Of a DNA stretch of 39,412 nt, positions 19,305-31,072 are shown piece by piece. The stretch is from the NCBI GenBank assembly GCA_003176045.1, contig PSRM01000028.1, forward strand, positions 1 to 39,412, in the 5' to 3' direction. The notes beneath the pieces were generated by a model. It worked only from the letters and a program-made list of their open reading frames with translations. It did no database searches and had not been told where the DNA came from. This DNA is from Verrucomicrobiota bacterium (lineage in GTDB: Bacteria > Verrucomicrobiota > Verrucomicrobiia > Limisphaerales > UBA8199). Positions within the stretch are counted from its first letter, which is position 1. Every line of letters begins with the position of its first letter. Made by a program: the position numbers and the translations under genes.

Positions 19305-21737
19305 TCACACCCACCAAAACGCATCCGTTCCCCCATTCGGATCCGTCGCTCCGGTAGTCCACGCATCCCAGTGGTCCAGAATCTTGCCGAGCATCTTGCA
19401 CTGCGAAAGGGCAGGGCGGAGGCCGCGCAGTTCGTGGAGGCGGACGTTGAGGGGCGCGGCCAGAGAGCTGTTCCGCAGGAGTCGGGCTTCCAGCACGAGT
19501 GACCGGGCTTCACCTATGATATTTCGCTGGCGCAATTGAATTGACTTGGCCTGTTTCAGCGCATCGAGCGCCCGGGCGGGATCAGTTTCGAGCTTGGCGC
19601 GATACGTGAGCACGAAATCGGAGCGGTCGCCATCCAATTGATGGGATACCTGGATGTCCTCGGCTTCCCGGAGCGCTGCCATCGCGTCAGCGCGGTGATT
19701 GAGGGCGCGGCAGGCATCGGCATAATCGGCCAGGGCGCGGGCGATGGCGCCGGGATTGGAGGACCCGCGCCGCGCAGGCAGGCAGGCATCCTGCAACCGC
19801 TGGAGGGCCTTCTCGGGCCGGCCCGTGCGCAAACATGAGTAACCCCAATGATCCAGAAAAGGCAATGCTGCGCCGTCCGATGGATCGGGCTCGGCTGCCA
19901 GGAGCTGGCGTCCGCGCGCGATCCATTCCGCGATGGCGGGAGGCGGCATTAGGCCCTGGTACCGATAGCAGCAAACGTAGCAATTGATCAGCGACAAGTT
20001 CTGTGGCTCGCACAGTGCCATTTGATCCAGCGCGATTCGGCCATCGAGAAAGCCTCGGCGGCTTTGGATCCAGGCGCGCAGGCGTAGAAGATCTTCATGA
20101 TATTGCAGTTCGGCCGCGTTTGGGAGGCTGCTGAGCATTTCGAGCAAATCGGCGGCAGCTTCATGATCGCCTCGCTCATGGTAGGCCCGGACCTGGCCGA
20201 GCATCCGGTGCACGTACGGCTCCATCGAGATGTCCGCGTCGAAGAAACCCGCAGGCGGGGAGCGCCATTTTTCCTCGGCGGCAAACGGATCGGACAAATC
20301 GAGCATGAGCCGTTTCTCGTGATCGAAAACCTGTTGCCAGCCGCAAGCGTAGCGGTGGCCGGTTCCGGCAAATCGCTGGACGCACCGCCCGCGCAACCGG
20401 GCCCGGCCAATGTCGGGCGGGTTGGCCAAGGCATGTTCGATATTGTTCACGCCGGGGAAACGGCTATCGGCGATCAGGCCCGCGCGATCGAGTGTTGAAA
20501 AAATTCCAGCGCCGCCGAGTTGGCCGAAACGGGTGTCTATCTCGCAGAGTTCCTGGTAGAGTTTAGAAAGGGCAGGGGAGGAGACAGCGGGGCGAGTGCC
20601 TGGAGCAGATTTGAGCGCCGCGATAATTTCGGGGCCGCTGTGGCTCGGAGAGCCGCGCTCCACAGCGCCATTGGCGTGATGCCAACAGTCGGGGGTGAGG
20701 CGATGATGTTCGGTGCGCTGCAAAAACAAGGCGAACTTCATCGCCCAGTCGAGCGTGCTGGCGACGGATGCGGGCGCGCCGTTTTCCAATTGGTCGAGCA
20801 TCCTGCGCCATTCGGCGCAAACTTCCCGCCTCCAGGGCGGCATAAAAGGATCGTCCAGATGCGCCTCGGCTGCCTCCAGGTAACGGCGCTGGATCTGGAG
20901 TGCACTCATGAGCTCGCCATTGGCCAAGGGCGCGCGGACCTGGCAGGTTGGATCAAACGCAAAGAGGCGCATGGCGGCCAAAGCATCGTGCAGGCGCATC
21001 CCGTATCCCGGGCGCAGACCGGCTTCAATCATGGCCACAATGATCGCGGTCGTGCCCATCGTCAGCCAAAGAGCCTTTTCGGAGCAAAGGCTTTCTCCGC
21101 AGATGATGTGGAGCCGATGGTAACCGTCCTTGGCCAGTGCTTCGTCTTTGGTGTGAAAGATCCCGCGATTGTTGGTACTGCTTTCTGAAATCTCGTGCTC
21201 CAGAAACGCCACGCGCGGCGACAGTGTAAAACTCAGCCGGCCATCGGGTCCAAGATCCAAACCGCCCGCCCCCGAGTAGATGATCCGGCTGACCAGGTGC
21301 GGAATGATTTGAGACGGCAGCCGTTCCGGGCTGGTGCGGTGCATGAATGAGGTGTGGCAACCCCAGGTCGAAGCGGTGCCGCTATGATCTACGTTGGTTT
21401 TGAATAAGAGGACCTCCGCAAGGCTGGGATCAGTGCGCACCATCTCCGCGCCGATCCTCGCCAACATCCTTTCCCCCGCCTGCATGTACCGAACGACGTC
21501 CCAGGGATTGGCGCACTCGGGCGTGGTCATTTCCGGATGCGAACAATCCACGTACAGGCGCGCCCCGTTTTCTAAAAAAATCCCGGCCCCTTCCATACAC
21601 GGCAAGTGCGGCAATTGAGCGCAGGCGATTTTCAGGAATCGGTCCGGCCAATTGCCGTCGCGAGTCGAGCGCCGCCCCTCGCGGTAACGCGGCGCGCAAC
21701 CGTATTCGATTTCCATTCCGAAAAGCCGCTCGGCCAT
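19305..21737 (-). CDS. pafA: PafA-like Pup ligase with C-terminal TPR-like extension
   Basis: PafA joins the C-terminal Glu of Pup to substrate lysines using ATP. From the ATG at 21737 (810 aa) the protein begins MAERLFGMEIEYG, with Glu9 and Glu11 in the nucleotide/Mg-binding strand, and has the catalytic-type Asp64 in RLYVDCSHPE; as I recall, Glu9 and Asp64 are also the numbers in M. tuberculosis PafA. The segment FKTNVDHSGTASTWGCH matches the family's NNTDxxGxSYGCHENY region, the Gly-Cys-His favouring PafA over Dop. TKDEALAKDGYHRLHIICGES continues the family pattern. PafA is about 450 aa; here residues ~500-810 are an added helical region with repeated Tyr/Ala/Leu spacing (AYHERGDHEAAADLLEM, HWGYSCLRTGRPEKALQRL, ALADYADACRALNHRADAM) that looks like TPRs. 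It follows the Pup-like gene. The start directly follows a TTTGAAC repeat and has no Shine-Dalgarno. Confidence 0.85.
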   Translation of the reverse strand: MAERLFGMEIEYGCAPRYREGRRSTRDGNWPDRFLKIACAQLPHLPCMEGAGIFLENGARLYVDCSHPEMTTPECANPWDVVRYMQAGERMLARIGAEMVRTDPSLAEVLLFKTNVDHSGTASTWGCHTSFMHRTSPERLPSQIIPHLVSRIIYSGAGGLDLGPDGRLSFTLSPRVAFLEHEISESSTNNRGIFHTKDEALAKDGYHRLHIICGESLCSEKALWLTMGTTAIIVAMIEAGLRPGYGMRLHDALAAMRLFAFDPTCQVRAPLANGELMSALQIQRRYLEAAEAHLDDPFMPPWRREVCAEWRRMLDQLENGAPASVASTLDWAMKFALFLQRTEHHRLTPDCWHHANGAVERGSPSHSGPEIIAALKSAPGTRPAVSSPALSKLYQELCEIDTRFGQLGGAGIFSTLDRAGLIADSRFPGVNNIEHALANPPDIGRARLRGRCVQRFAGTGHRYACGWQQVFDHEKRLMLDLSDPFAAEEKWRSPPAGFFDADISMEPYVHRMLGQVRAYHERGDHEAAADLLEMLSSLPNAAELQYHEDLLRLRAWIQSRRGFLDGRIALDQMALCEPQNLSLINCYVCCYRYQGLMPPPAIAEWIARGRQLLAAEPDPSDGAALPFLDHWGYSCLRTGRPEKALQRLQDACLPARRGSSNPGAIARALADYADACRALNHRADAMAALREAEDIQVSHQLDGDRSDFVLTYRAKLETDPARALDALKQAKSIQLRQRNIIGEARSLVLEARLLRNSSLAAPLNVRLHELRGLRPALSQCKMLGKILDHWDAWTTGATDPNGGTDAFWWV

Positions 21738-21830
21738 GTTCAAAGTTCAAAGTTCAAAGTCCAAAGTTCAAAGTCCGAAGTCCGTGGTCCACAGTCCACA
21801 GCCTCGTAGCAGCCGAGGTAACGAGGCTCT
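21738..21830. repeat. GTTCAAA 7-nt repeats, GTCCGTGGTCCACAG units and one GTAGCAGCCGAGG element
   Basis: Five GTTCAAA/GTCCAAA units directly abut the PafA-like ATG, followed (away from the gene) by GTCCGTG/GTCCACA units and, at 21806-21830, a copy of the element that forms the dyad at 11398-11484. This whole stretch is the leader of the ligase gene. Confidence 0.85.
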
Positions 21831-21875
21831 GTTCTTTCTGTCCTCTGACCTCTTCTCCCCCACTCGCCGACCAAG

Positions 21876-22079
21876 CTACTGCGCCGGCGGCTGTTTCACC
21901 GACTGATTAAAGGACTGGCTGTCCATCGAGAGGGCGCTGACGAGCATGCTCTCACTGAATTGAAGCATGCCCGCGGCCTGCTGGCGGATGGCGTTCAAGT
22001 TTGCGCCAGTCGGACCGCCAGCGGAGCCGGGTGATTGGCTGGGTTGATTTTCGGGTCTCGGACGTTCGTGTTGATCCAT
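21876..22079 (-). CDS. Pup/UBact-like protein modifier candidate, 67 aa, C-terminal Gln
   Basis: The ATG at 22079 gives 67 aa. The frame is open upstream to 22271, but that part is the translated hairpin repeat. The N-terminal ~25 residues are Pro/Gln/Asn/Gly rich and presumably disordered (MDQHERPRPENQPSQSPG); residues ~27-61 could form a helix (NLNAIRQQAAGMLQFSESML). It ends SFNQSVKQPPAQ, with its only lysine at position 62, five residues before the end. Pup is about 64 aa, disordered, has a helical C-half and ends Lys-Gly-Gly-Gln or -Glu; the Gln form is deamidated by Dop before ligation. This protein has the size, composition, C-terminal Gln and, above all, the position between Dop-like and PafA-like genes expected of Pup or of UBact, the relative described in Gram-negative phyla. 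It lacks the Gly-Gly. Identity is inferred chiefly from context. Confidence 0.7.
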   Translation of the reverse strand: MDQHERPRPENQPSQSPGSAGGPTGANLNAIRQQAAGMLQFSESMLVSALSMDSQSFNQSVKQPPAQ

Positions 22080-22196
22080 AATGCTCTTTAATTTTGGGGT
22101 TGAGTGTGATTTCGTTAGGTTCGTTTTAGGTTGAAATTGGATGGGAAATCCAAGACAGGAAGATTTAAGACAGGAAAATGCAAATTGGAATTGAAA

Positions 22197-22258
22197 GCAG
22201 GAAAATTTTGCGGCAGGAAGATTTTGAATTCCATTTTCCTGCCGCAAAATTTTCCTGC
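22197..22258. repeat. perfect 23-bp hairpin in the leader of the Pup-like gene
   Basis: Arms 22197-22219 and 22236-22258 are perfectly complementary (core GCAGGAAAATTTTGCGG) around a 16-base loop. Additional GACAGGAA units lie at 22153-22180. A near copy (22/24 in its own arms) is at 24139-24202, and a half-copy at 34571-34640. It lies in the ~214-base gap between the Dop-like stop and the Pup-like start. Confidence 0.9.
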
Positions 22259-22293
22259 ATTTCTTTTTCATTTTTTGTCTTCAATATTTGTCT

Positions 22294-23964
22294 TCATACT
22301 TGTCTATGCGTGGTTGATGGCTCCGCCTTAACGGCGATGGGAGATTGCACCGGGCTCGCATCCGCGCCAAGATTTACGAGCACCTCTTCCAGAGTGGCCC
22401 CCCCTTGAAATGCGCTTTCGCAGGCGGTCTTGGTGAATCCGAGCGGGTCCGTCAGTTTGATGGTTTTGTCGCGCGTCCAGTAACCGTCTCGCTCCACTGA
22501 AAACGTCATCGAGTCCCAATCCACGCGCTCGACCTGCCGCGGCTCGGCCAAACGCAGCAACATGCCGCGCGTCCAGGCGCGGGTGTTCTCAGGAGGCTCG
22601 GTACAAAAGCGCTCTACTTGCTCATCCGTAACTAGCTTGTCCACCTGCCCGTTTTTCTCCAAAGCCCAGAATAGTCCGTTCTCGTCGAGACTGGCATACA
22701 GAAAATCCAAATGTTTCAATTCTGGTGACGACCAGTCGAGGCCGGCGCGGTGCTCGCGCGCTCTCTCCAGGAGCTGGAGTTTGAGCACCCAATCCAGGCG
22801 GCGAGCCAGCATCGCGAAATCGCGCTGGCGCAATTTGTGGAGCGTGTCCGACCAAAGCTCCAGGATGAGTGGCGCTTCGGGCACGACACCGTCGCAGCCG
22901 CCAGCAGCTACAAACCGGTGGGCTTCTTCGTAGAGCAACAACTGCAACTCGACGGCGGTAAGGCTGCGCCCCGAGGTCAACCGGGCGCGGCTGCGGAGAG
23001 TTGGGTCGTGGCTCCAGAGGCAAAGGGCCTCGACAGGGTCGTCGAGCAGAAGATGCGTACGAACTCGCCCGGCCTCGATCATGGCCAGAATGATTTGCAT
23101 CACGCCGATCTTCAAGAAACTAGCGGTGTCGCAGAGGGTATGATCGTAGAAAATGACGTGTAAGCGCGCTTTGCTGGTGGAATCCGCGCTCCGATCGTAC
23201 CAGGAACCGCACAGCGCCTCGTCGCGGCTATTGACCAAAGGCCGGGTGAAGGTGGTTTGCGAGCCCATCAACATGTCCATGAAATCCGCTCGCTGCGAAA
23301 TTTGATAATCAACCGATGGCCGGTTGTTTTCGGAGCCCACTTTCCCCTGCCCGGTGAAAATGATGCTGGAGGCCTGGTAGGCGGCCAGGAAAAGCAAATG
23401 ATGCAAGCGTCGCTCGAACAGATCAGTCCAGGCGCTGCGGGTGACCAGGAAGTTGATGTGGCTGCCGTAGGAATGGCCCTGGCCGTCGGAGTTGTTCGCC
23501 AGCACCACGATCCGTTTTCCTTCAGGCAATCGGGCGTTGGCCATTTTCATAGCCGCCCGGGCCAGGAGCAGCATGGCGCGAGAGGCCGCCACGTGGTCCT
23601 TCGCGCTCAGCACTTCAGCAATACACAGTTCGAGGTGCGAGAGATCAATATATGCGCAGCCGCCATTCCACAGGAATTTTCGCGCCCAGTCCTGGGCGTT
23701 GTAAGTCGAGCCCGACTTGCTCAACAAGCACTCTTCTGAGAGAGCCTCTGTGGTGGTGTAACCGTTCTCCAGCGCCTGGCGCCGCGCCACACACGCCCGG
23801 CAATAACATAACGAAAGGCTCTTCCGGGCCAACGGAAGCCCGTCGAATTCGCGCAGGAGCAGATGTGACGCAAGCGCGGCCGTTCCGGACGGCATCTCGA
23901 GCCCGAGAATGAAGTTGGCCAATTCGAAGTCACCCCCGCAGAGTTTAGGCAAACGAGTTTTCAT
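22294..23964 (-). CDS. dop: Dop-like Pup deamidase/depupylase
   Basis: Dop converts the C-terminal Gln of Pup to Glu and removes Pup from substrates. This 556-aa protein shares the PafA/Dop carboxylate-amine ligase fold. ILGLEMPSG (Glu23) replaces the family's GIETEYG, with the second Glu lost. NGGCAYIDLSHLE carries the invariant Asp (Asp107). The Glu-to-Asp spacing is 84 residues, close to Dop with its extra loop, while the neighbouring PafA-like protein has 55. NNSDGQGHSYGSHINFL has the Gly-Ser-His form of Dop. YQISQRADFM, TRPLVNSRDEA, RLHVIFYDHTLC and LKIGVMQIILAMIEAG follow the family pattern, and VDWDSMTFS with KLTDPLGFTK forms the C-terminal domain. Two Cys pairs in the loop (CYCRAC) are unusual. 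It lies 367 bases after the ATPase gene and 214 before the Pup-like gene. The role split between the two paralogs is inference. Confidence 0.85.
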   Translation of the reverse strand: MKTRLPKLCGGDFELANFILGLEMPSGTAALASHLLLREFDGLPLARKSLSLCYCRACVARRQALENGYTTTEALSEECLLSKSGSTYNAQDWARKFLWNGGCAYIDLSHLELCIAEVLSAKDHVAASRAMLLLARAAMKMANARLPEGKRIVVLANNSDGQGHSYGSHINFLVTRSAWTDLFERRLHHLLFLAAYQASSIIFTGQGKVGSENNRPSVDYQISQRADFMDMLMGSQTTFTRPLVNSRDEALCGSWYDRSADSTSKARLHVIFYDHTLCDTASFLKIGVMQIILAMIEAGRVRTHLLLDDPVEALCLWSHDPTLRSRARLTSGRSLTAVELQLLLYEEAHRFVAAGGCDGVVPEAPLILELWSDTLHKLRQRDFAMLARRLDWVLKLQLLERAREHRAGLDWSSPELKHLDFLYASLDENGLFWALEKNGQVDKLVTDEQVERFCTEPPENTRAWTRGMLLRLAEPRQVERVDWDSMTFSVERDGYWTRDKTIKLTDPLGFTKTACESAFQGGATLEEVLVNLGADASPVQSPIAVKAEPSTTHRQV

Positions 23965-24331
23965 TTAGTCCAATTTTTTAACCACGGATGCACACAGATG
24001 AACACGGATCCGGTGAAGCCGGACCCGGAGCAATGTCCGATCGCCGGAGCGGCAAATTTCTTCCTAAAAACGCGCGAATTCTCATAGTTCTGTACGGATG
24101 AAGACAGGAAAATTGAAGACAAGAAAATGAGAAAGAAAGGCAGGAAAATTTTGCGGCAGGAATATGGAATTTAAAATCTTCTTGCCGCATAATTTTCCTG
24201 CCTTCAATTCCGTGTGCATTTTCCTGTCTTAAATTTTCCTGTCTTGGATTTCTCATCCGTGTCTATTCCGTGTTCATCCGTGGTTAAGTTCATCCGTGGT
24301 TAAAGATTTCAGATGTCGTTGGTCACATTGG
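23965..24331. repeat. nested inverted repeat filling the gap between ATPase and Dop-like genes
   Basis: The outer arms are the dispersed AACCACGGATGCACACAGAT / CATCCGTGGTTAA element (23976-24008 against 24253-24304). The inner arms 24139-24162 and 24179-24202 match at 22 of 24 positions and belong to the same family as the hairpin at 22197-22258. GAAGACAGGAAAATT units lie between. No gene is visible; open frames here are made of the repeats. Confidence 0.8.
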
Positions 24332-25993
24332 CTAATTCAGATACCGATGTTGGTTTTTCACTTTCCTCACGATCGGCTCCACGCTGACCACGTCCACGTC
24401 CTGGGGTAAATCGTGGAGGTAGCTTCGAGCGTTGTTGATCGTCAGGATGCGGCGCATGCGCTGGAGGGTTTCGCTGACGGCATCCTGCATGTCCACCAAC
24501 TGGACCCCTGCCGTCCCACCGTTGACATGACGCAGGAACGCGGCCCGCCGCGCGGTCCGGCAGACGTTCTCGAACAACCGGCCACTGGCCAATTCGCGGG
24601 CCACGATGGTCCGCTCCTTGCCGTCGCGGAATCGCATGGTGCAAAGTTCATTGCCCGCGTTGGGGCTGTAAAACTGCGAGACCGCATGTTCAATCAGTTC
24701 GTCCCGCGTGGACACAGCGAGTGCGCCGTTTGGATGAAATGGCACATTTTCCGGCAGGTGAATCCGGAAAATGGCGCGCGCGCCTTTCATGTCAGGCCGA
24801 CCTACGCTGATCTCCAAATCGGAGAGGCGTTCATATAATGCGCTATCCAATAAATCTTTACGGTTTGTGGCGCAGATGATCGCCACGTTTTTGCGTTCGG
24901 CGAAGCCATCCAGTTCGGTCAACAAAGCGCCCAGGAATTTGTCCGAGTGGTGCGAGACCGCTCCGCCCCGGATGCGGCCAATGGTTTCGACCTCATCCAT
25001 GAAGATGAGCGCGTAGCCATCCTCGCCGGCTTCGCGCAGGGCCTGGAAACATTGGCGGATGTTTTCCTGTGTCTGGCCGACCCAGGGCGATTCCCATTCC
25101 GAAGGTTTCACGATGGCAATCCGGCATTTCTTGCCCGTGATCCGGCTGATTTCGCTGGCGGCCACGCGGGCCATCAACGTCTTGCCGCAACCCGGCGGGC
25201 CAACCATGAGAATCGAGTTGCGGCCACTCAAATAATAGGAAGCGGCCAGCGCCGGTTCGACCAGGATGACCGTCAGCACGGCCAAGAGCTTCTCGAGGTT
25301 CTCCCGCTGGCCGCCCACTGAATTCACCGAAAGGTTCGGAACTTCGTCGAGCAGGTACCGGCGCCCAAGTTCCAATTCGATTTTCTCATAGACCATCCAG
25401 GTGGTCCGATCAAAGCGCACGGCGTCCCCGGCTTTAAGGCCGGTTTTGATCAGCCTGCCCGAGACATCCATCACGAAGGGATCATCGTGATGGCGCACGA
25501 TCATGCGCCCATCAGCCAGCCAGCGCTCGAAAATCCCCGTCTCGCCGCAAGCGGAGCAACCATTAGGCGATACCGCCACGATCAGGTTTTGTTCGCTGTT
25601 CAGGAATACTTCGTCTCCACGGACCAGGGTGGAAAAATCAATTCCCTCGCCCGGGGAAACGGTGCGGCGGGCGCCAGAAATTTGCACCAGCGCCATAGCC
25701 TTGCCGCCGGCCTGAATGACCTTGTGAAAAATGGCCGGGTAAAGTGGCGGGGCTGAGAGCTTTTCCAGCAGAGCTCGGCACTCTTTGATTTGGTTCTGAG
25801 TGGTTCGCAGGGTGCGGCGGTAAACCGCAAGGATGTCCAGCACCAACCGGTCCACTGCCATACCGGCTTCGGGTGATTTTCCACGCAACTGCTGGATGCT
25901 CGTGAGGGTTGCGTCAATGTCCATCGGCCCTTCGTTGTTCAGGAGGGCGCGGACCTGGTCGGGGGTTATTTCATCGGGAACAGGCTTTCTCAT
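24332..25993 (-). CDS. arc: ARC/Mpa-type proteasomal AAA ATPase
   Basis: ARC/Mpa rings unfold Pup-tagged proteins and thread them into the 20S proteasome. I choose the ATG at 25993 (553 aa) because GGAG lies 9 bases before it; the frame also has ATG at 26002 and TTG at 26008. Residues ~30-95 are helical and could form the N-terminal coiled coil. An OB-like domain follows with an unusual Cys pair (GCSACGETG). The AAA module has Walker A GPPGCGKT (about 263), pore-loop motif SPWVGQTQ (aromatic-hydrophobic-Gly), Walker B ALIFMDEVE (about 330) and sensor CATNR. The tail NELCTMRFRDGKER..ELASGRLFENVCRTARRAAFL matches the ARC C-domain. The protein ends HRYLN; Mpa/ARC ends in Gln-Tyr-Leu, which docks on the 20S core, so a Tyr close to the terminus is suggestive. 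It overlaps the JAMM peptidase gene by 23 bases. Confidence 0.87.
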   Translation of the reverse strand: MRKPVPDEITPDQVRALLNNEGPMDIDATLTSIQQLRGKSPEAGMAVDRLVLDILAVYRRTLRTTQNQIKECRALLEKLSAPPLYPAIFHKVIQAGGKAMALVQISGARRTVSPGEGIDFSTLVRGDEVFLNSEQNLIVAVSPNGCSACGETGIFERWLADGRMIVRHHDDPFVMDVSGRLIKTGLKAGDAVRFDRTTWMVYEKIELELGRRYLLDEVPNLSVNSVGGQRENLEKLLAVLTVILVEPALAASYYLSGRNSILMVGPPGCGKTLMARVAASEISRITGKKCRIAIVKPSEWESPWVGQTQENIRQCFQALREAGEDGYALIFMDEVETIGRIRGGAVSHHSDKFLGALLTELDGFAERKNVAIICATNRKDLLDSALYERLSDLEISVGRPDMKGARAIFRIHLPENVPFHPNGALAVSTRDELIEHAVSQFYSPNAGNELCTMRFRDGKERTIVARELASGRLFENVCRTARRAAFLRHVNGGTAGVQLVDMQDAVSETLQRMRRILTINNARSYLHDLPQDVDVVSVEPIVRKVKNQHRYLN

Positions 25994-27077
25994 CTTGGTC
26001 ATCTCCAATTGTGGCCGTCGCGTCAGGCACGAGGGCCGGGTTTAGTTCTCCGTTAGTTGCAAGAATGTGGAATCCGCGCTGGACGATCAGGCCGTTGCGC
26101 CAGGAGAACATCGCGTGGCGCAGACCCGCGTCCGTGCTGGTAATCAGCAGCGCGACTTGAAAGGCTTTGGGAAAAACTGTCCGGTGAACGTCGCAGTCAT
26201 CGGAACTAAAAAAAGACCGTTGCAACGGGCACTTGGCGCGCTCCTCGGGAGCGCATTTCGGATTGCACCATGCGCTTGACGGATGCAGATGCCACCAGCC
26301 GAGCCACTGTTCATTTTTGCCCCGGAGAGCGAGTGCATGGCTGACGGCGTCCCAGGTTTCGGGGCCGAAGCTCACTTTTGTGGCGGTGGCCTCTGCGTAA
26401 CGCGCGTGGATTTGCGCTGTCACCTCCAGAAACAACTCGCCGCCTGGATCGCGGTGAACGTGGCCGACCAAAATCGAGGCAGTCTCAAGCCCACCGGCGG
26501 CCCTGGCTAATTGTTCCGTCTCGGCCACAACCTGCTTCGAGACGAACACACGGATATCCGACTCGTTTTGTTCGCCGACGGCGGAGGAGCGCTTATTAAA
26601 ATCATTTAGCGAAGCGGCCCGGATCGGGAGTGGTTCAGAGACTTCTTCGATCTGGAAGCGAGGTTTGCGCTGCGGATTCATGGGCGGTTCCGGCGGGTTC
26701 GCAAAGGCGGCGATCCGGTAATTGAAATATTCTCCCGACTTAAGGAGACCTTTCCCCACGAACGGAGCGCTGGCCGCCCCTGCGAAGGATTTGAAATAAG
26801 TCGTCGGCACCTGGCAGGAGACTTCCCCAACGCCTGGCAACTGAAGCGCAACCTCGACTGCGCCCACGAAGGGCGCACCGAGGTCTGTGTGCCAGACGGG
26901 CCGCAGCTCGGCCACGGCTCCAGGCCCGATGGTGGCGATGGGAAACCGGCGCAGCGCCGCAAATCGCGCTGTCTCCCAGGCCGGTTCCCAATCCGCCACC
27001 ACCGGCACTTGGCCCAGCGCGGCGCCATTCCGTTTGAACAGCTCCATCACGTAACGGTGTGGCTGCCGGGTGGTCAT
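25971..27077 (-). CDS. JAMM (JAB/MPN+) isopeptidase with N-terminal domain
   Basis: JAMM enzymes are zinc peptidases that remove ubiquitin-like proteins. From the ATG at 27077, four bases after the Ubl stop, the protein is 368 aa; the longer frame to 27221 would overlap the Ubl gene. Residues 1-~160 form an unrecognised domain of mostly beta pattern. The JAMM domain begins near residue 180: Glu in GLETASILVGHVHRD, the metal His pair in GWWHLHPSS (about 258-266) and the Ser-x-x-Asp of FFSSDDCDVH (about 290). Between His pair and Ser there is a Cys-rich insert (CNPKCAPEERAKC) that could bind a second metal. As the only isopeptidase in the Ubl half of the locus, it would process or deconjugate the Ubl. 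Its overlap with the proteasomal ATPase gene recalls the Rpn11-Rpt pairing in the eukaryotic 19S particle; that parallel is inference. Confidence 0.85.
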   Translation of the reverse strand: MTTRQPHRYVMELFKRNGAALGQVPVVADWEPAWETARFAALRRFPIATIGPGAVAELRPVWHTDLGAPFVGAVEVALQLPGVGEVSCQVPTTYFKSFAGAASAPFVGKGLLKSGEYFNYRIAAFANPPEPPMNPQRKPRFQIEEVSEPLPIRAASLNDFNKRSSAVGEQNESDIRVFVSKQVVAETEQLARAAGGLETASILVGHVHRDPGGELFLEVTAQIHARYAEATATKVSFGPETWDAVSHALALRGKNEQWLGWWHLHPSSAWCNPKCAPEERAKCPLQRSFFSSDDCDVHRTVFPKAFQVALLITSTDAGLRHAMFSWRNGLIVQRGFHILATNGELNPALVPDATATIGDDQDEKACSR

Positions 27078-27081
27078 AAGC

Positions 27082-27357
27082 TTAACCCGCTTGAATCGAG
27101 GGCTGCACCGTGATGCGGTCCTCGTCCTCGAGCCCGGTATCGGCCAACAATTGGCTGGCATGGAGATGTTGACCCGTCCTGTCGTGCCTGGCGTGATACG
27201 TGATTCGACGTCCGTTCCCAAGGACGGGCAGCCTCATCTTAGGGACGAGGCTGTCCAACAATTCCCCGACGCTCATCTCGCGATCGAGCCGGCTGACGTT
27301 AACGACATTCTGGCCGCTGACGTCAACGGCAGAAATGTCGAGTGTTTTGTTCTTCAT
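27082..27357 (-). CDS. beta-grasp ubiquitin-like modifier ending in Ala-Gly
   Basis: This 91-aa protein has the pattern of a ubiquitin/YukD-like beta-grasp fold: strand MKNKTLDISAVDVSG, strand QNVVNVSRL, helix SVGELLDSLVPKM, strands NGRRITYHARHD, then SQLLADTGLEDEDRITVQPSIQAG, where the Leu-x-x-x-Gly-Leu-x-x-x-Asp turn before the last strand is typical of ubiquitin-like proteins. The C-terminus ends in a single exposed Gly (QAG) with no extra tail, so it would not need prior trimming for E1 activation. Genes for E1, E2, RING-like and JAMM proteins are adjacent. The start overlaps the previous stop by four bases (ATGA), with AAGGA about 10 bases upstream. Established: YukD-like Ubls occur in bacterial E1/E2/JAB/RING operons; conjugation by this one is inferred. 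Confidence 0.8.
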   Translation of the reverse strand: MKNKTLDISAVDVSGQNVVNVSRLDREMSVGELLDSLVPKMRLPVLGNGRRITYHARHDRTGQHLHASQLLADTGLEDEDRITVQPSIQAG

Positions 27358-28355
27358 TGTGTGTCTGTCCTTTCGTTGGCCCGATTCGCAGGGGTTGCAT
27401 CCCAGCCGCGCATGGCCAGGTAGCGCTCCGCAATTTCGGGCGTTTGCAGCGCTTTTATTTCCGCCTCGCCGCTCATGCTGCAGATCAGCGACAGGCAGTC
27501 CAGTGCACTGGAAATTTCGATGGCAGCCGGGGCCGACGCGAAGACCACTTCGAACTGCGCAATCTGAGCGCTGGAGGCCTCTCCGGCCCCGGCCTCTGTT
27601 TCGGCGCGAATCGCGGGGCTTTCATCCGCACGCAGCGAACCTCGCGCCATCCGCACCACACCGGAAGCAGCGAGCAATAAGCCGGCCACCGCCCTTTGGC
27701 AGGTTTCGGTCAGTGAATCGAGCCGGGCCAGTTCACAGGTAATGCGAACGCCCTCCCCGGCAGGAGCGAGAAGAGCCTGGTTAAAGCTGCCGGGGGTCTC
27801 CAACTCGACCGCAAGCAATCGGCCGCCTCGTTCCGTGAATGGCCAGCCTGCTTCGGTGCACAGGGTTTGGAGGTTCGCGGTGGCTGGCTCCGGCTCACTC
27901 GCAGCGGCGGAGCGCGGCTCTCCTGAGCCGCAGCGGCTGGATTCGGGTTTGGGTTCCGAAATCCCCACCGCCCGCTCGTCTGCGGATCGACTGCTACCGA
28001 GCCCTATCCACGCCTTTTCAAAACCGAGCCGCGTCTCCAGAACCCGGCGTTCCAAATCAATACCATCGAACAGCGGCAGGTCAGCCCGAAGTTGAAGGAA
28101 GCCCTCCTTGGCTAGAACAAATCTTGCCAGACCAGGTATTCTTGAGTTCAACTGCAGTGCAGCCCACAGTCCAGGCGGCGTTGGACCAGAGTTAAGTTGT
28201 ATCAGGATTCTGAGCCAATCACTATCGGCTTCGGCCATGACCTTGTGAGGCGCTCCGTTGTGCCAGGTGAATTGCCACGAGTTGGCTAAACAGGCAGCAA
28301 AGTCCGAAGCAGAACTCTTGATGGCGGCGCCTATTGAATCAACTGTAATATTCAT
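27354..28355 (-). CDS. unrecognised two-lobed protein of the ubiquitin-like operon
   Basis: This 333-aa protein is cytosolic by composition, without signal or membrane spans. It seems to have two alpha/beta lobes: residues ~1-120 (NSWQFTWHNG, WLRILIQL, GLARFVLAKEGFLQLRADLPLFDGIDLERRVLETRLGFEKA) and ~160-320 (AGWPFTERGGRLLAVEL, GVRITCELARL, FEVVFASAPAAIEISSALDCL, PEIAERYLAMRGW). The order of strands and helices recalls the CesT/YbjN-type chaperone fold, but that is only an impression. The linker at ~135-155 contains a Glu/Pro/Ser block from the dispersed GGAGCGCGGCTCTCCTGAGC repeat read in frame. Both ends overlap the neighbours by four bases (ATGA), and a strong GGGAGGAG precedes the start, so it is made in step with the E2 and Ubl. 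It could be a chaperone, adaptor or scaffold for the cascade. Confidence 0.75.
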   Translation of the reverse strand: MNITVDSIGAAIKSSASDFAACLANSWQFTWHNGAPHKVMAEADSDWLRILIQLNSGPTPPGLWAALQLNSRIPGLARFVLAKEGFLQLRADLPLFDGIDLERRVLETRLGFEKAWIGLGSSRSADERAVGISEPKPESSRCGSGEPRSAAASEPEPATANLQTLCTEAGWPFTERGGRLLAVELETPGSFNQALLAPAGEGVRITCELARLDSLTETCQRAVAGLLLAASGVVRMARGSLRADESPAIRAETEAGAGEASSAQIAQFEVVFASAPAAIEISSALDCLSLICSMSGEAEIKALQTPEIAERYLAMRGWDATPANRANERTDTQ

Positions 28356-28885
28356 TCCATCTCCTCCCGTTTGGCCGGGGCCACGCCGGTGCGGACAGAG
28401 CGGCGTTTCAAGGGGCGGTTATCGATCGGGAAGCGAAAACTTTTCTGGTTGCGCGCCCATTGCGAGGCGGCCGGATTTAGCCCATCGTCATGAGTCGCAA
28501 AGAGCCTCCAAGTCCAGAGTTCATAACAGACATAGATAAGGTCAACCAATGGCGTGCCAGGGGCGATGTGCGCGCACAAAAATGGGTTACGAATGTTCGG
28601 CGCCCACGGAAAACGGTGGGGTCCGAGATAAGTCAGGCTCTGGGCAACATTCGCGTATCTCAAGTAGTCCGGGGTGAACCAGATACCCACCCGAAACTGG
28701 TCGAACTCGACAATTTTACCCCGGCCATCCCGCACCAGACCCCGGCAGGAAAAATGTGCTAGATAACGCGACGGCGGGTCCGAGTCTGTCAAAGGCGTAA
28801 GGTCGAATATGTCACTCTCCGCAGCGAGTGCCATGCCTTCTTTGTATTGTCGGCGCAAAAATGCTTCGCGGATGTGGTCGCTCAT
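28352..28885 (-). CDS. E2-like ubiquitin-conjugating enzyme
   Basis: The start at 28885 gives 177 aa and forms an ATGA overlap with the E1 stop; the longer frame to 28999 is repeat-derived. The core reads FSCRGLVRDGRGKIVEFDQFRVGIWFTPDYL (two strands of the E2 sheet), then YLGPHRFPWAPNIRNPFLCAHI. The Pro-Asn-Ile followed by Cys104 seven residues after Asn97 corresponds to the eukaryotic His-Pro-Asn...Cys active site, with Ala in place of the His and the oxyanion Asn kept. PLVDLIYVCYELWTWRL then supplies the helix after the catalytic Cys. The C-terminal ~25 residues are basic. Known family: E2s of bacterial Ubl operons accept the Ubl from the E1 as a thioester and pass it to a lysine. The gene stop overlaps the next start by four bases. 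Confidence 0.8.
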   Translation of the reverse strand: MSDHIREAFLRRQYKEGMALAAESDIFDLTPLTDSDPPSRYLAHFSCRGLVRDGRGKIVEFDQFRVGIWFTPDYLRYANVAQSLTYLGPHRFPWAPNIRNPFLCAHIAPGTPLVDLIYVCYELWTWRLFATHDDGLNPAASQWARNQKSFRFPIDNRPLKRRSVRTGVAPAKREEME

Positions 28886-30534
28886 GGGGTGGTTCTTGGG
28901 TGGAAGGGTGAAACCGAACGCGCGGGAAGGTAGCGCACTCCAGAGGCGTTGCGTGCCTGGACACGGGCACCACCTTGCGAAGCTTTTGGAGTGCGGCACT
29001 CCTGTGCCGCTTTGGCTTTTTGTCCGGAACCAACCAAACCGCTCCCGATGGATCGGGAGCGCACTCCAAGGCGCTCGCCCCGCAGTGCGCGCGCCGGGAC
29101 TCGCGAAGCGTTTGGAGTGCGGCGTATTCCGCCGCTTTCGTTTGCGTTTTTCCGCGATGCCCCAGCCAGTTCAAGAAATTTTTCACTCTTCCCCTCCCGC
29201 AGCGAAATAATATCCCCTCCTCTCAGCCCCAGACTCTCAAGTGTCCGCTCAGCCTCGCCGGGCCCCAGGTCGGCGCGGCTGAGGCGCGATTTCATGTGAA
29301 AACCCGCTGCCAGCATCTCCGCCCCGCAGCGGTCACATAACCGCTCCCGGTCACGCAGACGATGCTGCAAGCGGAAGACGCTCCTACCGAAACCGCAGGC
29401 CGGGCAATCAAGCCTTTTAGCGACTGCGTGGCCGCCGAAGCCAAGCTCTGTATGCATACCGCCCACTGGAGGCCTCTTAAGGATCGAGCCGAGGGGGCTT
29501 GGCAGCAGATTCGGTCGGCCAGGGGCAATCGTCCAAATTCGATGATCAAAGCGGCAATCAGGATTACGGCAAAAACTCGTGGTAATCGCGCGGTGCGTCG
29601 TGGTGTCCAAAACCAACTGCCGCCCAATCAATGCGGTTTCAGATTTCCCAAATAGAAGTTTCTGGCATTCCAGCACCGCCAACGCCGCGCAATAGGCGCC
29701 AAGGCATGACGGCGCGTTCGTACTAGACGTTTTCGGCGTCCCCTGGTCGCAAGGATACAACGTGGTCAGATTATCATATTCACTTTCGCTCCAGGCACAC
29801 TCCAGGCAGGGCTGGTCTTTGCCCGGCCGGTAAACATTCACCCGCGCCAGCATTAGGCTGGGCTCCACGCCAGCGTCAATCCAGATCATCCCCAACCGCC
29901 ACGCGATTTCGTTGAGACCGCGCCGACTTTCCAGCGAATCAAGGCATCCCAGCGCCAAATTACCTCGTAGCCAGCCGCGCGGAATATTTTCCAGGCGGTC
30001 CACAATCGGCATAACCGCGAGTTTCGGATTGATTCGTTTAGCCACGCGGGCTTGAACTTGAGCTTTCGGCTGTCCGAAATCGGCTGGGGTAATTGCCTGC
30101 GACCTCAAATTCTCCGCCTCGTACCGGTCATGATCTATCAGCGTCAGGTGCGACACGCCTGGGAGCCTTGCCAGCAAGGGAATAACGTAGGAGCCGATAT
30201 TTCCAAGCCCGCAGACCACTAGGTGCGCCAGGCGCGTCGCGAAACCAGCCGGTGGCAGCAGACGCTCGGCAGAGGCGGGAGCGTGGTCTTTAGACCGCTT
30301 CACGCGGGAAATACAAAGCCGGGGCCGATTTTTCGTAACTGATTCTTTGGGCCGGACGTGAAACTGGCCGGCCCGCGGTAGCCCAGCCGCAGCCGGAGCG
30401 CGGCCTTCAGGCCGCTTCACCGCGGAAATGGTCAACCGCGGCGGATTCTTCATGGCCGATTCCCTTGCGAGCAACCGGGACTCCGAACCATTTAACGATT
30501 TAACCCTTTTAACCCATTTAACTTGCTTTCTCAT
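28882..30534 (-). CDS. ThiF/E1-like ubiquitin-activating enzyme with zinc ribbon and repeat-derived tails
   Basis: E1 enzymes adenylate the C-terminus of a Ubl and carry it as a thioester. The frame opens at 30681; I place the start at 30534 (550 aa), four bases after the upstream stop, with 30453 (purine-rich AAGGGA before it) a good alternative. The Rossmann core has VVCGLGNIGSYVIPLL (about 105-120), LIDHDRYEAENLRSQ, GQPKAQVQ and LGCLDSLESRRGLNEIA. Zinc-type pairs are PCLEC and CRNPDC; candidate thioester Cys are in LYPCDQG and NAPSCLGAYC. A C-terminal zinc ribbon (CPACG...CDRCG) follows. The ~80 residues before the core contain two copies of one repeat unit (KNPPRLTISAVKRPEG, KNRPRLCISRVKRSKD) and the last ~85 are GC-rich repeat DNA in frame. 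The stop overlaps the E2 start (ATGA). Confidence 0.83.
   Translation of the reverse strand: MRKQVKWVKRVKSLNGSESRLLARESAMKNPPRLTISAVKRPEGRAPAAAGLPRAGQFHVRPKESVTKNRPRLCISRVKRSKDHAPASAERLLPPAGFATRLAHLVVCGLGNIGSYVIPLLARLPGVSHLTLIDHDRYEAENLRSQAITPADFGQPKAQVQARVAKRINPKLAVMPIVDRLENIPRGWLRGNLALGCLDSLESRRGLNEIAWRLGMIWIDAGVEPSLMLARVNVYRPGKDQPCLECAWSESEYDNLTTLYPCDQGTPKTSSTNAPSCLGAYCAALAVLECQKLLFGKSETALIGRQLVLDTTTHRAITTSFCRNPDCRFDHRIWTIAPGRPNLLPSPLGSILKRPPVGGMHTELGFGGHAVAKRLDCPACGFGRSVFRLQHRLRDRERLCDRCGAEMLAAGFHMKSRLSRADLGPGEAERTLESLGLRGGDIISLREGKSEKFLELAGASRKNANESGGIRRTPNASRVPARALRGERLGVRSRSIGSGLVGSGQKAKAAQECRTPKASQGGARVQARNASGVRYLPARSVSPFHPRTTP
28925..29135. repeat. GGAGTGCGGC / GCGCACTCCA dispersed repeats inside the 3' end of the E1 gene
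   Basis: At least three alternating copies of a GCGCACTCCAAG / TTTGGAGTGCGGC element, plus the dyad CTCCCGATGGATCGGGAG at about 29042-29060. The same motif is at 17738-17775. It supplies most of the last 80 codons of the E1. Confidence 0.8.
30240..30530. repeat. two divergent copies of a GCGGCCTTCAGGCCGCTTCAC element and a TTTAACGATTTAACC repeat at the E1 5' end
   Basis: A block with GACCGCTTCACGCGGGAAAT (about 30290-30312) recurs at 30408-30430 with GCCGCTTCACCGCGGAAATG, each followed by ACAAAGCCGG or GTCAACCGCGG. At 30488-30524 there are four AACNNTTTAAC units. Together they encode the extra N-terminal residues of the E1. Confidence 0.75.
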
Positions 30535-30538
30535 ACGT

Positions 30539-31072
30539 CTAAAGCATCTCAGGGGTCCAGGAGTAACCCGCGTCCAGTTCGGTGGATTGCTGACCGCACA
30601 CCGCGCATGTCGGCGCGTATGTCCAGCAGGGAAATCTTTCGCTTTGATGATGGTAAGCTCCACAATTAGGGCACCGCACACAAAGGTCCCCGGGCTCTAT
30701 TTTTTCTTTACACCGCGGGCAAAAAACGGGCTGAGCAAGGCCCTCAAACGCGATCACCTTGGCCAGCTCTTCCGTCGAGAAATAGCAGCGCTGCCCGCCA
30801 ATTCGGATCTCGTCCTTGTGCCGGAGCACCCGCAGCCCAAGCTGCAGCGGTTCGCCGTTGAGATGGAGCCGAACCTGTTGACCTGCGACCAGCACCCATT
30901 CAGGACTGCCTGCCCCTTTAGCCACCGGCAGGACTCGAACGTCCTCAGCGGCGAGTTGGCCATAGGGCGGCGTCAGGCGAGCCTCTACGCCATCGCCCAA
31001 ACGCACACAGCACTCGCCCGTGGGCGTTTGGATGGCCCAGTCACGTTCGGCAGCTTCAATCCAAAAGTGCAT
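30539..31072 (-). CDS. FHA-like plus RING-like zinc-finger protein, E3 ligase candidate
   Basis: This 177-aa protein is the first gene of the conjugation operon. Residues ~1-105 are all-beta; QQVRLHLNGEPLQL followed by VLRHKDEIRIGGQRCYF matches the end of an FHA-type domain, which binds phosphothreonine in known cases. The rest is a zinc module: CPRCKEKIEPGDLC, then VRCPNCGAYHH, FPCW and CAVCG, i.e. Cys-x2-Cys, Cys-x2-Cys-x2-Cys, His-His, Cys, Cys-x2-Cys, enough for two zinc ions in a RING/treble-clef arrangement. Prokaryotic RING-like fingers have been described in operons with E1, E2, JAB and YukD-like Ubl genes, and here all of these follow directly. A role as the substrate-choosing E3, perhaps recruited to phosphorylated targets, is inferred. 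The stop lies four bases before the proposed E1 start. Confidence 0.78.
   Translation of the reverse strand: MHFWIEAAERDWAIQTPTGECCVRLGDGVEARLTPPYGQLAAEDVRVLPVAKGAGSPEWVLVAGQQVRLHLNGEPLQLGLRVLRHKDEIRIGGQRCYFSTEELAKVIAFEGLAQPVFCPRCKEKIEPGDLCVRCPNCGAYHHQSERFPCWTYAPTCAVCGQQSTELDAGYSWTPEML

Follow-up and report, generated by a model that had tools for sequence, protein, structure and literature searches.

A conserved ten-gene block joins a ubiquitin-like and a Pup-like tagging cascade to an ARC/Mpa-type ATPase without 20S proteasome genes

The window analyzed here is a stretch of 39,412 nucleotides from a Verrucomicrobiota genome (order Limisphaerales; assembly GCA_003176045.1, contig PSRM01000028.1; genome of 7.7 Mb, 86% complete). 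Its minus strand carries, from position 31072 to 19305, ten open reading frames (ORFs), all open, in the order FHA/RING-like protein (RING), E1, E2, gene 4, ubiquitin-like modifier (Ubl), JAMM metallopeptidase, ARC/Mpa-type ATPase, Dop-like enzyme, Pup-like tag and PafA-like ligase, just as an initial annotation of the sequence had listed them. This hybrid block, in which a Ubl cascade (Ubl half) is joined to a Pup-type one (Pup half), was found in 15 genomes: 8 of the 320 of the order, 5 of the 398 Acidobacteriaceae sampled, and two others. The ten genes likely form one functional system, and we see an even chance that it handles proteins by means of two tags of different chemistry, with a ring that unfolds or disassembles the target. 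Both halves are of known kinds. What appears to be new is their conserved union without a 20S proteasome: no description of the combined locus was found in the open-access literature searched, an earlier mention in subscription papers being possible.

Distribution of the hybrid block

Searching the PafA-like protein against 22 selected genomes led to divergent loci, with the ten genes in identical order in G669, G468, G646, G432 and G453, and all ten also present, with broken frames, in G434. An alignment-based E2 scan of 84,980 species gave 11 loci, all hybrid: these six and five new ones, labeled in the database as Planctomycetota (L105), Acidobacteria (L108, L109 and L110) and “bacterium” (L111). 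The E2 profile matched 13 of the 320 genomes of the order. Eight matches of at least 222 bits were all hybrid (the window, the six above and G445). The weak ones (up to 67.2 bits) belonged to Ubl-type loci of other kinds, in the window’s own genome (G000), G425, G475 (two), G575, G437 and G438, and the stretches read at all seven weak loci had no Dop or PafA gene. Among the Acidobacteriaceae, 35 of 398 genomes matched, five strongly (G706, G707, G708, G929 and G917) and 30 weakly. Three of these 30 weak loci were read; their stretches had no Dop or PafA gene and their genomes no Pup ligase.

High E2 scores of the hybrid copies were expected, because 12 of the 15 copies were part of the profile (all except G445, G917 and G929). 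The E2 by itself led to eight genomes (G705–G709, G445, G917 and G929), and all eight have Pup-half genes; the other seven are the window’s or were found through the PafA-like protein. Pup-ligase genes were present in all seven hybrid genomes outside the order. Within the order, the Pup_ligase family was found in 96 of the 320 genomes, 84 of them having a best match below 1e-100 and being of the canonical type. A phylum-wide sample had Pup ligases in 11 of 387 genomes: one hybrid (the window’s), nine full-length pairs with canonical scores, and one fragment.

Nine genomes had all ten genes consecutively on one strand (the window’s, G669, G468, G646, G432, G453, G705, G708 and G709), with gene 4 split into two ORFs in G453 and the Ubl interrupted by unread bases in G708. 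G706 and G929 had the ten genes with the PafA-like one inverted, the Dop-like gene of G706 being interrupted near unread bases. G707 had nine genes in the block and the PafA-like gene on a separate contig (G707:C80, L182). The block ran into a contig end after eight genes in G445 and after six in G917, which had Pup-ligase genes on other contigs. On contig G708:C329 (L187) there was a second PafA-like gene, with a frame of 802 amino acids (aa). G425, with a PafA-like gene 57% identical to the window’s near a contig end, was excluded from the 15.

Even where the proteins share only about 20–57% identity with those of the window, the gene order recurs, and by sequence comparison this recurrence is beyond what chance would give. 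An accident of one strain was rejected, since the block recurs in 15 genomes. The proposal of the initial annotation that the two halves belong together was strengthened by these genomes, their labels of several phyla and their mostly different flanks.

Junctions between the genes

In the window, with hand-picked gene starts, the junctions measured −4 bases for E1/E2, E2/gene 4 and gene 4/Ubl, +4 for Ubl/JAMM and −38 for JAMM/ATPase. RING and E1 overlapped or were 85 bases apart, according to the E1 start chosen. The overlap of JAMM and ATPase genes, noted initially, recurred in 11 of 12 loci. The genes where the Ubl and Pup halves meet overlap or almost touch.

Wider gaps precede the Dop-like (367 bases), Pup-like (214 bases) and PafA-like gene (132 bases). 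The first is an interspersed repeat (23965..24331, no strand assigned), partly palindromic and spread genome-wide, with 82 matches in its own genome, counting itself and both-strand duplicates. A second copy lies at 22139–22297, within the 214-base gap, and the 132-base gap holds short tandem repeats. The repeat of the first gap was not seen in the other hybrid loci compared, and 93 of the 95 junctions in 11 other loci were at most 97 bases. The repeat-filled gaps described initially are peculiar to the window’s genome, and we rejected them as a sign of separate operons, taking them for repeat insertions.

Proteins of the Ubl half

Pfam and NCBIfam identified the E1, the ATPase and the two Pup-ligase-family proteins clearly and the RING weakly. 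Orthologues were gathered because the E2, gene 4 and Pup-like proteins gave no match alone, and Ubl and JAMM only weak ones. Pfam counts among orthologues were taken at E-values up to 1.

The first gene (30539..31072, minus strand as all genes here) encodes a 177-aa protein with an FHA-like part, which we assigned by a motif we presume to be typical, and a RING-like zinc finger, making it a candidate E3. Prok-RING_1 matched the window copy at 7.2e-6, under the family cut-off, and 9 of 11 orthologues. Seven Cys were invariant in 11/11, the eighth ligand not being fixed. A profile search of the PDB was led by the EL5 RING (E 0.024), other RING E3s following at 0.13–0.36, mixed with other zinc proteins. 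The FHA-like assignment also draws on an FHA gene in a related operon.

The E1-like activating enzyme (28882..30681, ORF of 599 aa, start likely near 30453) matched ThiF at 2e-29. A Cys after the adenylation domain and the CxxC pairs were conserved in all six copies compared; the C-terminal tail of the window copy was not conserved. In L111 (6372–7859) the E1 looks circularly permuted, its C-terminal half preceding the nucleotide-binding half in a single ORF.

The E2-like conjugating enzyme has 177 aa from the methionine at 28885 (28352..28885; the ORF opens at 28999). Cys and Asn of the HPN-Cys motif were invariant in 12/12 and HPN was complete in 11/12, while UQ_con matched four of the 12 orthologues (best 2.9e-4). 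For its AlphaFold model (pLDDT 86), all 50 PDB matches listed by Foldseek were E2s or E2 fusions, with a best E-value of 1.1e-3 and TM-scores of 0.37–0.55 normalized by the query. An E2 fold is thereby supported at the level of a model, and the different fold that the initial annotation had allowed for was not found.

Gene 4 (27354..28355, 333 aa) was modeled as two tandem domains (pLDDT 79). Foldseek placed Arp2/3 chain D first (1.5e-4), with a root-mean-square deviation (rmsd) of about 20, followed by SpcU, SigE, SycE, ExsC and PA14_16140 (E 0.06–1) with better rmsd over smaller matches. One orthologue matched YbjN at 0.046. From the model, the protein probably consists of two tandem domains like type-III-secretion chaperones or YbjN.

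The Ubl (27082..27357, 91 aa, ending in AG) is a putative beta-grasp-like modifier whose C-terminal Gly was invariant in 10/10. This Gly was the last residue in four copies and was followed by 1–7 residues in six; these tails suggest trimming. Weak matches point to a beta-grasp fold: the SAMP1 family at 0.02, SAMP1 structures at E 0.65–0.84 behind one designed protein, and YukD and ThiS weakly in one member each, among unrelated families.

The JAMM protein (25971..27077, ORF opening at 27221) has an N-terminal extension. JAB/Prok-JAB matched all 11 orthologues, and the window copy alone only weakly. The JAMM-motif residues Glu, HxH, Ser and Asp were invariant in 11/11, and the protein is a predicted metallopeptidase.

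In its E1 adenylation domain with Cys, its E2, its JAMM motif and its RING, the Ubl half agrees with bacterial Ubl conjugation operons. Two loci, possibly of a sister system, share its order. In G437 (L149, 266–6056) RING-E1-E2-x-Ubl is followed by an ARC/Mpa-like ATPase (pup_AAA 1.5e-33), and in G438 (L148) the same five genes are followed by the contig end. Both genomes were searched, and neither has a Pup ligase or a 20S gene. The window’s own genome holds a second Ubl operon (G000:C64, L147, 4188–9652) with Ubl, E1, JAMM and E2, and no Pup genes in the stretch read.

ATPase and proteins of the Pup half

The ATPase (24332..26008, 558 aa) combines an AAA domain (2.8e-26) with a proteasomal-ATPase OB domain (2.7e-8). 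The pup_AAA model matched nearly its full length (residues 65–520) with 239.5 bits, its equivalog cut-off of 504.75 not being reached. Among 12 hybrid ATPases, Walker A was found in all and the pore-loop pattern in 11. The hybrid ATPases form two subtypes, and this split does not follow the trees of the other proteins. In the arginine-finger region, three hybrid ATPases (window, L086 and L142) have a shortened RPGR stretch that reads ER; the pattern gave no match in L111, which belongs to the same subtype.

The Dop-like enzyme (22294..23964, 556 aa) matched Pup_ligase at 1.5e-97 and Dop with 276 bits, under the equivalog cut-off. The PafA-like ligase (19305..21743, 812 aa) matched Pup_ligase at 1.5e-83 and has a C-terminal TPR-like region (TPR_12 0.0038, under its cut-off). 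Both keep most of the carboxylate-amine-ligase motifs described in PMC2588565, including the catalytic Asp; the Dop-like enzyme deviates with GxDxE and the PafA-like ligase with HxS. PafA-like genes also stand apart from any Ubl half at L093 (297–2446), L092 (2933–5737), L090 (1–3614) and L062 (988–3252). Directly upstream of the PafA-like gene in L090, L092 and L093 there is a small ORF ending in GE, a candidate tag.

The Pup-like tag (21876..22079) has 67 aa from the methionine at 22079. In the alignment of 11 copies the last residue was always Q or E, preceded by GG in nine, SG in one and PA in the window. The GGQ/GGE end given initially therefore applies to nine of the window’s ten aligned orthologues, the tenth ending in SGE, and not to the window copy, which ends in PPAQ. 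The Pfam Pup family matched one of 11 orthologues (0.0069) and nothing in the window’s own genome, because this tag is too divergent. Dop/PafA-family enzymes, a small Q/E-ended tag and an ARC/Mpa ATPase are features that this half shares with Pup/UBact-proteasome systems, whose 20S core genes it lacks. The family assignments of the initial annotation were thus borne out by Pfam, motifs and the E2 model, that of the Ubl fold through weak matches only.

In the trees, the 11 hybrid Dop-like proteins formed a clade (support 100/100), and the 11 hybrid PafA-like proteins formed a 15-row clade with four lone relatives (100/99). A branch of 3.55 changes per site split the hybrid from the canonical ATPases. 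In these trees the Pup-half proteins stand as clades of their own, on long branches remote from the canonical UBact type.

Absence of the 20S proteasome

Canonical loci of the order encode a 20S match before PafA (G522, G468 and G700). The order in G522 is ARC, Dop, UBact-like, two ORFs at the position of the 20S genes and PafA, and in the canonical locus of G468 ARC, Dop, 20S subunit, a second ORF and PafA; it varies, ARC following PafA in G700. The hybrid block has no 20S genes in the loci read. A PF00227 search of all 15 hybrid genomes found no 20S gene in 13. The same search was positive in all six canonical-locus genomes searched (G493, G700, G404, G468, G408 and G522), which indicates that it works.

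G646, G669, G453, G432, G434 and G705 had no PF00227 match whatever, and G706 and the window’s genome had weak Ntn-type matches only. HslV was found in G707, G708, G709, G917 and G929 (L138–L140 are HslV, and L199 and L200 are 80–82% identical to L138). L141 and L203 correspond to a weakly matching Ntn-type protein, presumably Anbu-like from its motif, L204 is a further apparent match without family assignment, and L001, from the window’s own genome, is an Ntn-like protein that matched no NCBIfam model. The 20S subunit of G445 is L201, which shares 65% identity with the one in G468.

Proteasomal degradation, at first the default reading, was dropped after these searches. With no 20S gene in the block or in 13 of the 15 genomes, the initial idea that one machine degrades both kinds of tagged protein is left unsupported.

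Co-divergence and flanks

Distances were compared across nine loci for E2, JAMM, Dop-like, PafA-like, ATPase and RING. Those of E2, JAMM, Dop-like and PafA-like agreed with each other (r 0.71–0.90), also across the two halves (E2/Dop r 0.76, JAMM/Dop r 0.84, p 1e-4). The 101 flanking ORFs of 12 loci resembled each other between close relatives (G432/G434 and L109/L110). An extra gene common to the flanks was not found beyond these relatives and one upstream gene shared by G669, G432 and G434. The distances and the mostly differing flanks fit a unit that may move as a whole.

Proposed mechanism and alternatives

We favor one system with two tags and one ring. E1, E2 and the FHA/RING protein would attach the Ubl. 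The PafA-like ligase would join the Pup-like peptide to its target through the terminal Glu, which the Dop-like enzyme would first produce from Gln by deamidation in tags that end in Gln. The ARC/Mpa-type ring would capture the tagged protein, probably through an N-terminal coil binding the Pup-like tag, and thread it. JAMM at the ring would strip the Ubl and the Dop-like enzyme the Pup-like tag, so that the block is predicted to encode two writers, two erasers and one ring. Since the block brings no 20S chamber, the ring would most likely unfold or disassemble its target in the manner of Cdc48/p97. Recurrence of the block in distantly related bacteria makes it probable that the two kinds of tag act jointly, and from the linkage we infer that they meet on one substrate or complex. 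Tentatively, and with rather more doubt than confidence, we propose a third kind of prokaryotic tagging machine, in which both tags, of unrelated chemistry, mark the same targets for a proteasome-type ring that would have lost its protease and act as an unfoldase or disassembly machine, with one eraser per tag. In G437, whose genome has neither Pup ligase nor 20S, a Ubl cascade lies with an ARC-like ATPase; such a ring can therefore go with a Ubl cascade that has no Pup half, and it may have joined the Ubl half first.

Several observations weigh against this proposal. In G468 and G445 the hybrid block is accompanied by a canonical-type Dop and a 20S, and in these two genomes the 20S could serve the block. 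Metagenome-assembled genomes are incomplete (G646 97%, G669 and G453 90%, the window’s 86%), and a 20S gene could be missed. PafA-like genes occur without the Ubl half in G451, G493, G408 and G617; on a short contig of G451, gene-4-like, Pup-like and PafA-like genes stand together without the remaining ones. The ATPase distances agree less closely (r 0.39–0.54) with those of E2, JAMM, Dop-like and PafA-like, those of RING were not significant with any protein compared (r 0.20–0.29), and the agreement of the others partly reflects shared species history. V is the last residue in three of the 12 hybrid ATPases and in most canonical ones; the tails vary and are no guide to docking. The HxN of canonical PafA is replaced by HxS in the PafA-like copies (the window’s has HTS), and the window’s E2 (APN) and Pup-like tag (PPAQ) each have an odd residue.

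Degradation could still follow if the ring passed proteins with either tag to HslV, ClpP, Lon or a 20S encoded elsewhere. The 20S with canonical-type Dop in G468 and G445, and HslV in five of the seven hybrid genomes outside the order, would suit this. We consider it unlikely: in three of those genomes HslV adjoins an ORF that we take to be HslU-like from its motif, six hybrid genomes have no PF00227 match, and the flanks share no common peptidase (by similarity comparison only; ClpP and Lon were not searched). One tag might instead control the other, the Ubl cascade modifying the Pup-like tag, the PafA-like ligase or the ATPase and so switching pupylation-like tagging. This would agree with the tightly packed single block, with the Ubl half coming first and with the Pup-like tag having its own Dop-like and PafA-like enzymes; the data do not separate a regulator from a parallel tag, and we give this reading a small probability.

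The sporadic occurrence in 8 of 320 and 5 of 398 genomes, the changing flanks and the FHA-like domain would also suit a Bil- or Bub-like system for stress or anti-phage conflict that acquired Pup parts; Bub operons are described as proposed stress or immune pathways in PMC13373217. However, PADLOC models were matched only by E1, JAMM and ATPase, through general families (the flanks were not screened for defence genes), and we think this improbable. That two independent systems merely lie side by side is very improbable: although PafA-like genes, canonical Pup systems and other Ubl loci each occur alone, all eight genomes found through E2 alone have Pup-half genes, and at the junction of the halves the genes overlap or are almost contiguous.

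Ubiquitination and pupylation are convergent, separate inventions. If the two-tag system is real, one pathway can combine both chemistries, and ARC/Mpa rings can have a use that involves no proteolysis. The compact ten-gene set, with E1, E2, RING, JAMM and ring ATPase, would lend itself to in vitro rebuilding of tagging and unfolding, and to asking how the 19S-like pairing of JAMM and AAA ring arose.

Comparison with known systems

UBact/Pup-proteasome loci share with the hybrid block an ARC ATPase, Dop, a small Q/E-ended tag and PafA, in the same relative order as in G522. The hybrid differs in having no 20S genes, long branches, another tag sequence and a joined Ubl cascade. A Pup and Pup ligase unlinked to 20S genes were reported from Plesiocystis and Rhodopirellula (Iyer 2008, PMC2588565). 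These loci differ in their membrane insertions and membrane partner, and the accessible text describes no Ubl cascade with them.

Bacterial E1-E2-JAB-Ubl operons are described by Iyer 2006. The bacterial Ubl operons read here share E1, E2, Ubl, JAMM and RING with the hybrid block, and distant kin occur in the same order, including the window’s genome; they have no Dop, Pup or PafA, and their gene order differs. Operons of the E1-E2-JAB-Ubl kind, some of them with a RING, were reportedly also described by Burroughs in 2011. The G437 locus has an identical Ubl-half order followed by an ARC/Mpa-like ATPase, likewise without a 20S, but its genome has no Pup ligase, the locus no convincing JAMM, and its ATPase is about 25% identical. 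Bil (BilABCD) is described in PMC11354881 as a four-gene operon with a two-domain, BilA-like Ubl. The hybrid is a ten-gene block, its Ubl of 91 aa has the size of a single domain, and the match of the BilD model is confined to the E1 domain (3.5e-6).

In the eukaryotic 19S, Ubl conjugates are handled by an AAA ring together with the JAMM enzyme Rpn11, and Cdc48 is an AAA ring without 20S. The hybrid block would resemble both in handling Ubl conjugates by an AAA ring and differs from them by its second, Pup-type tag; the likeness is one of analogy only.

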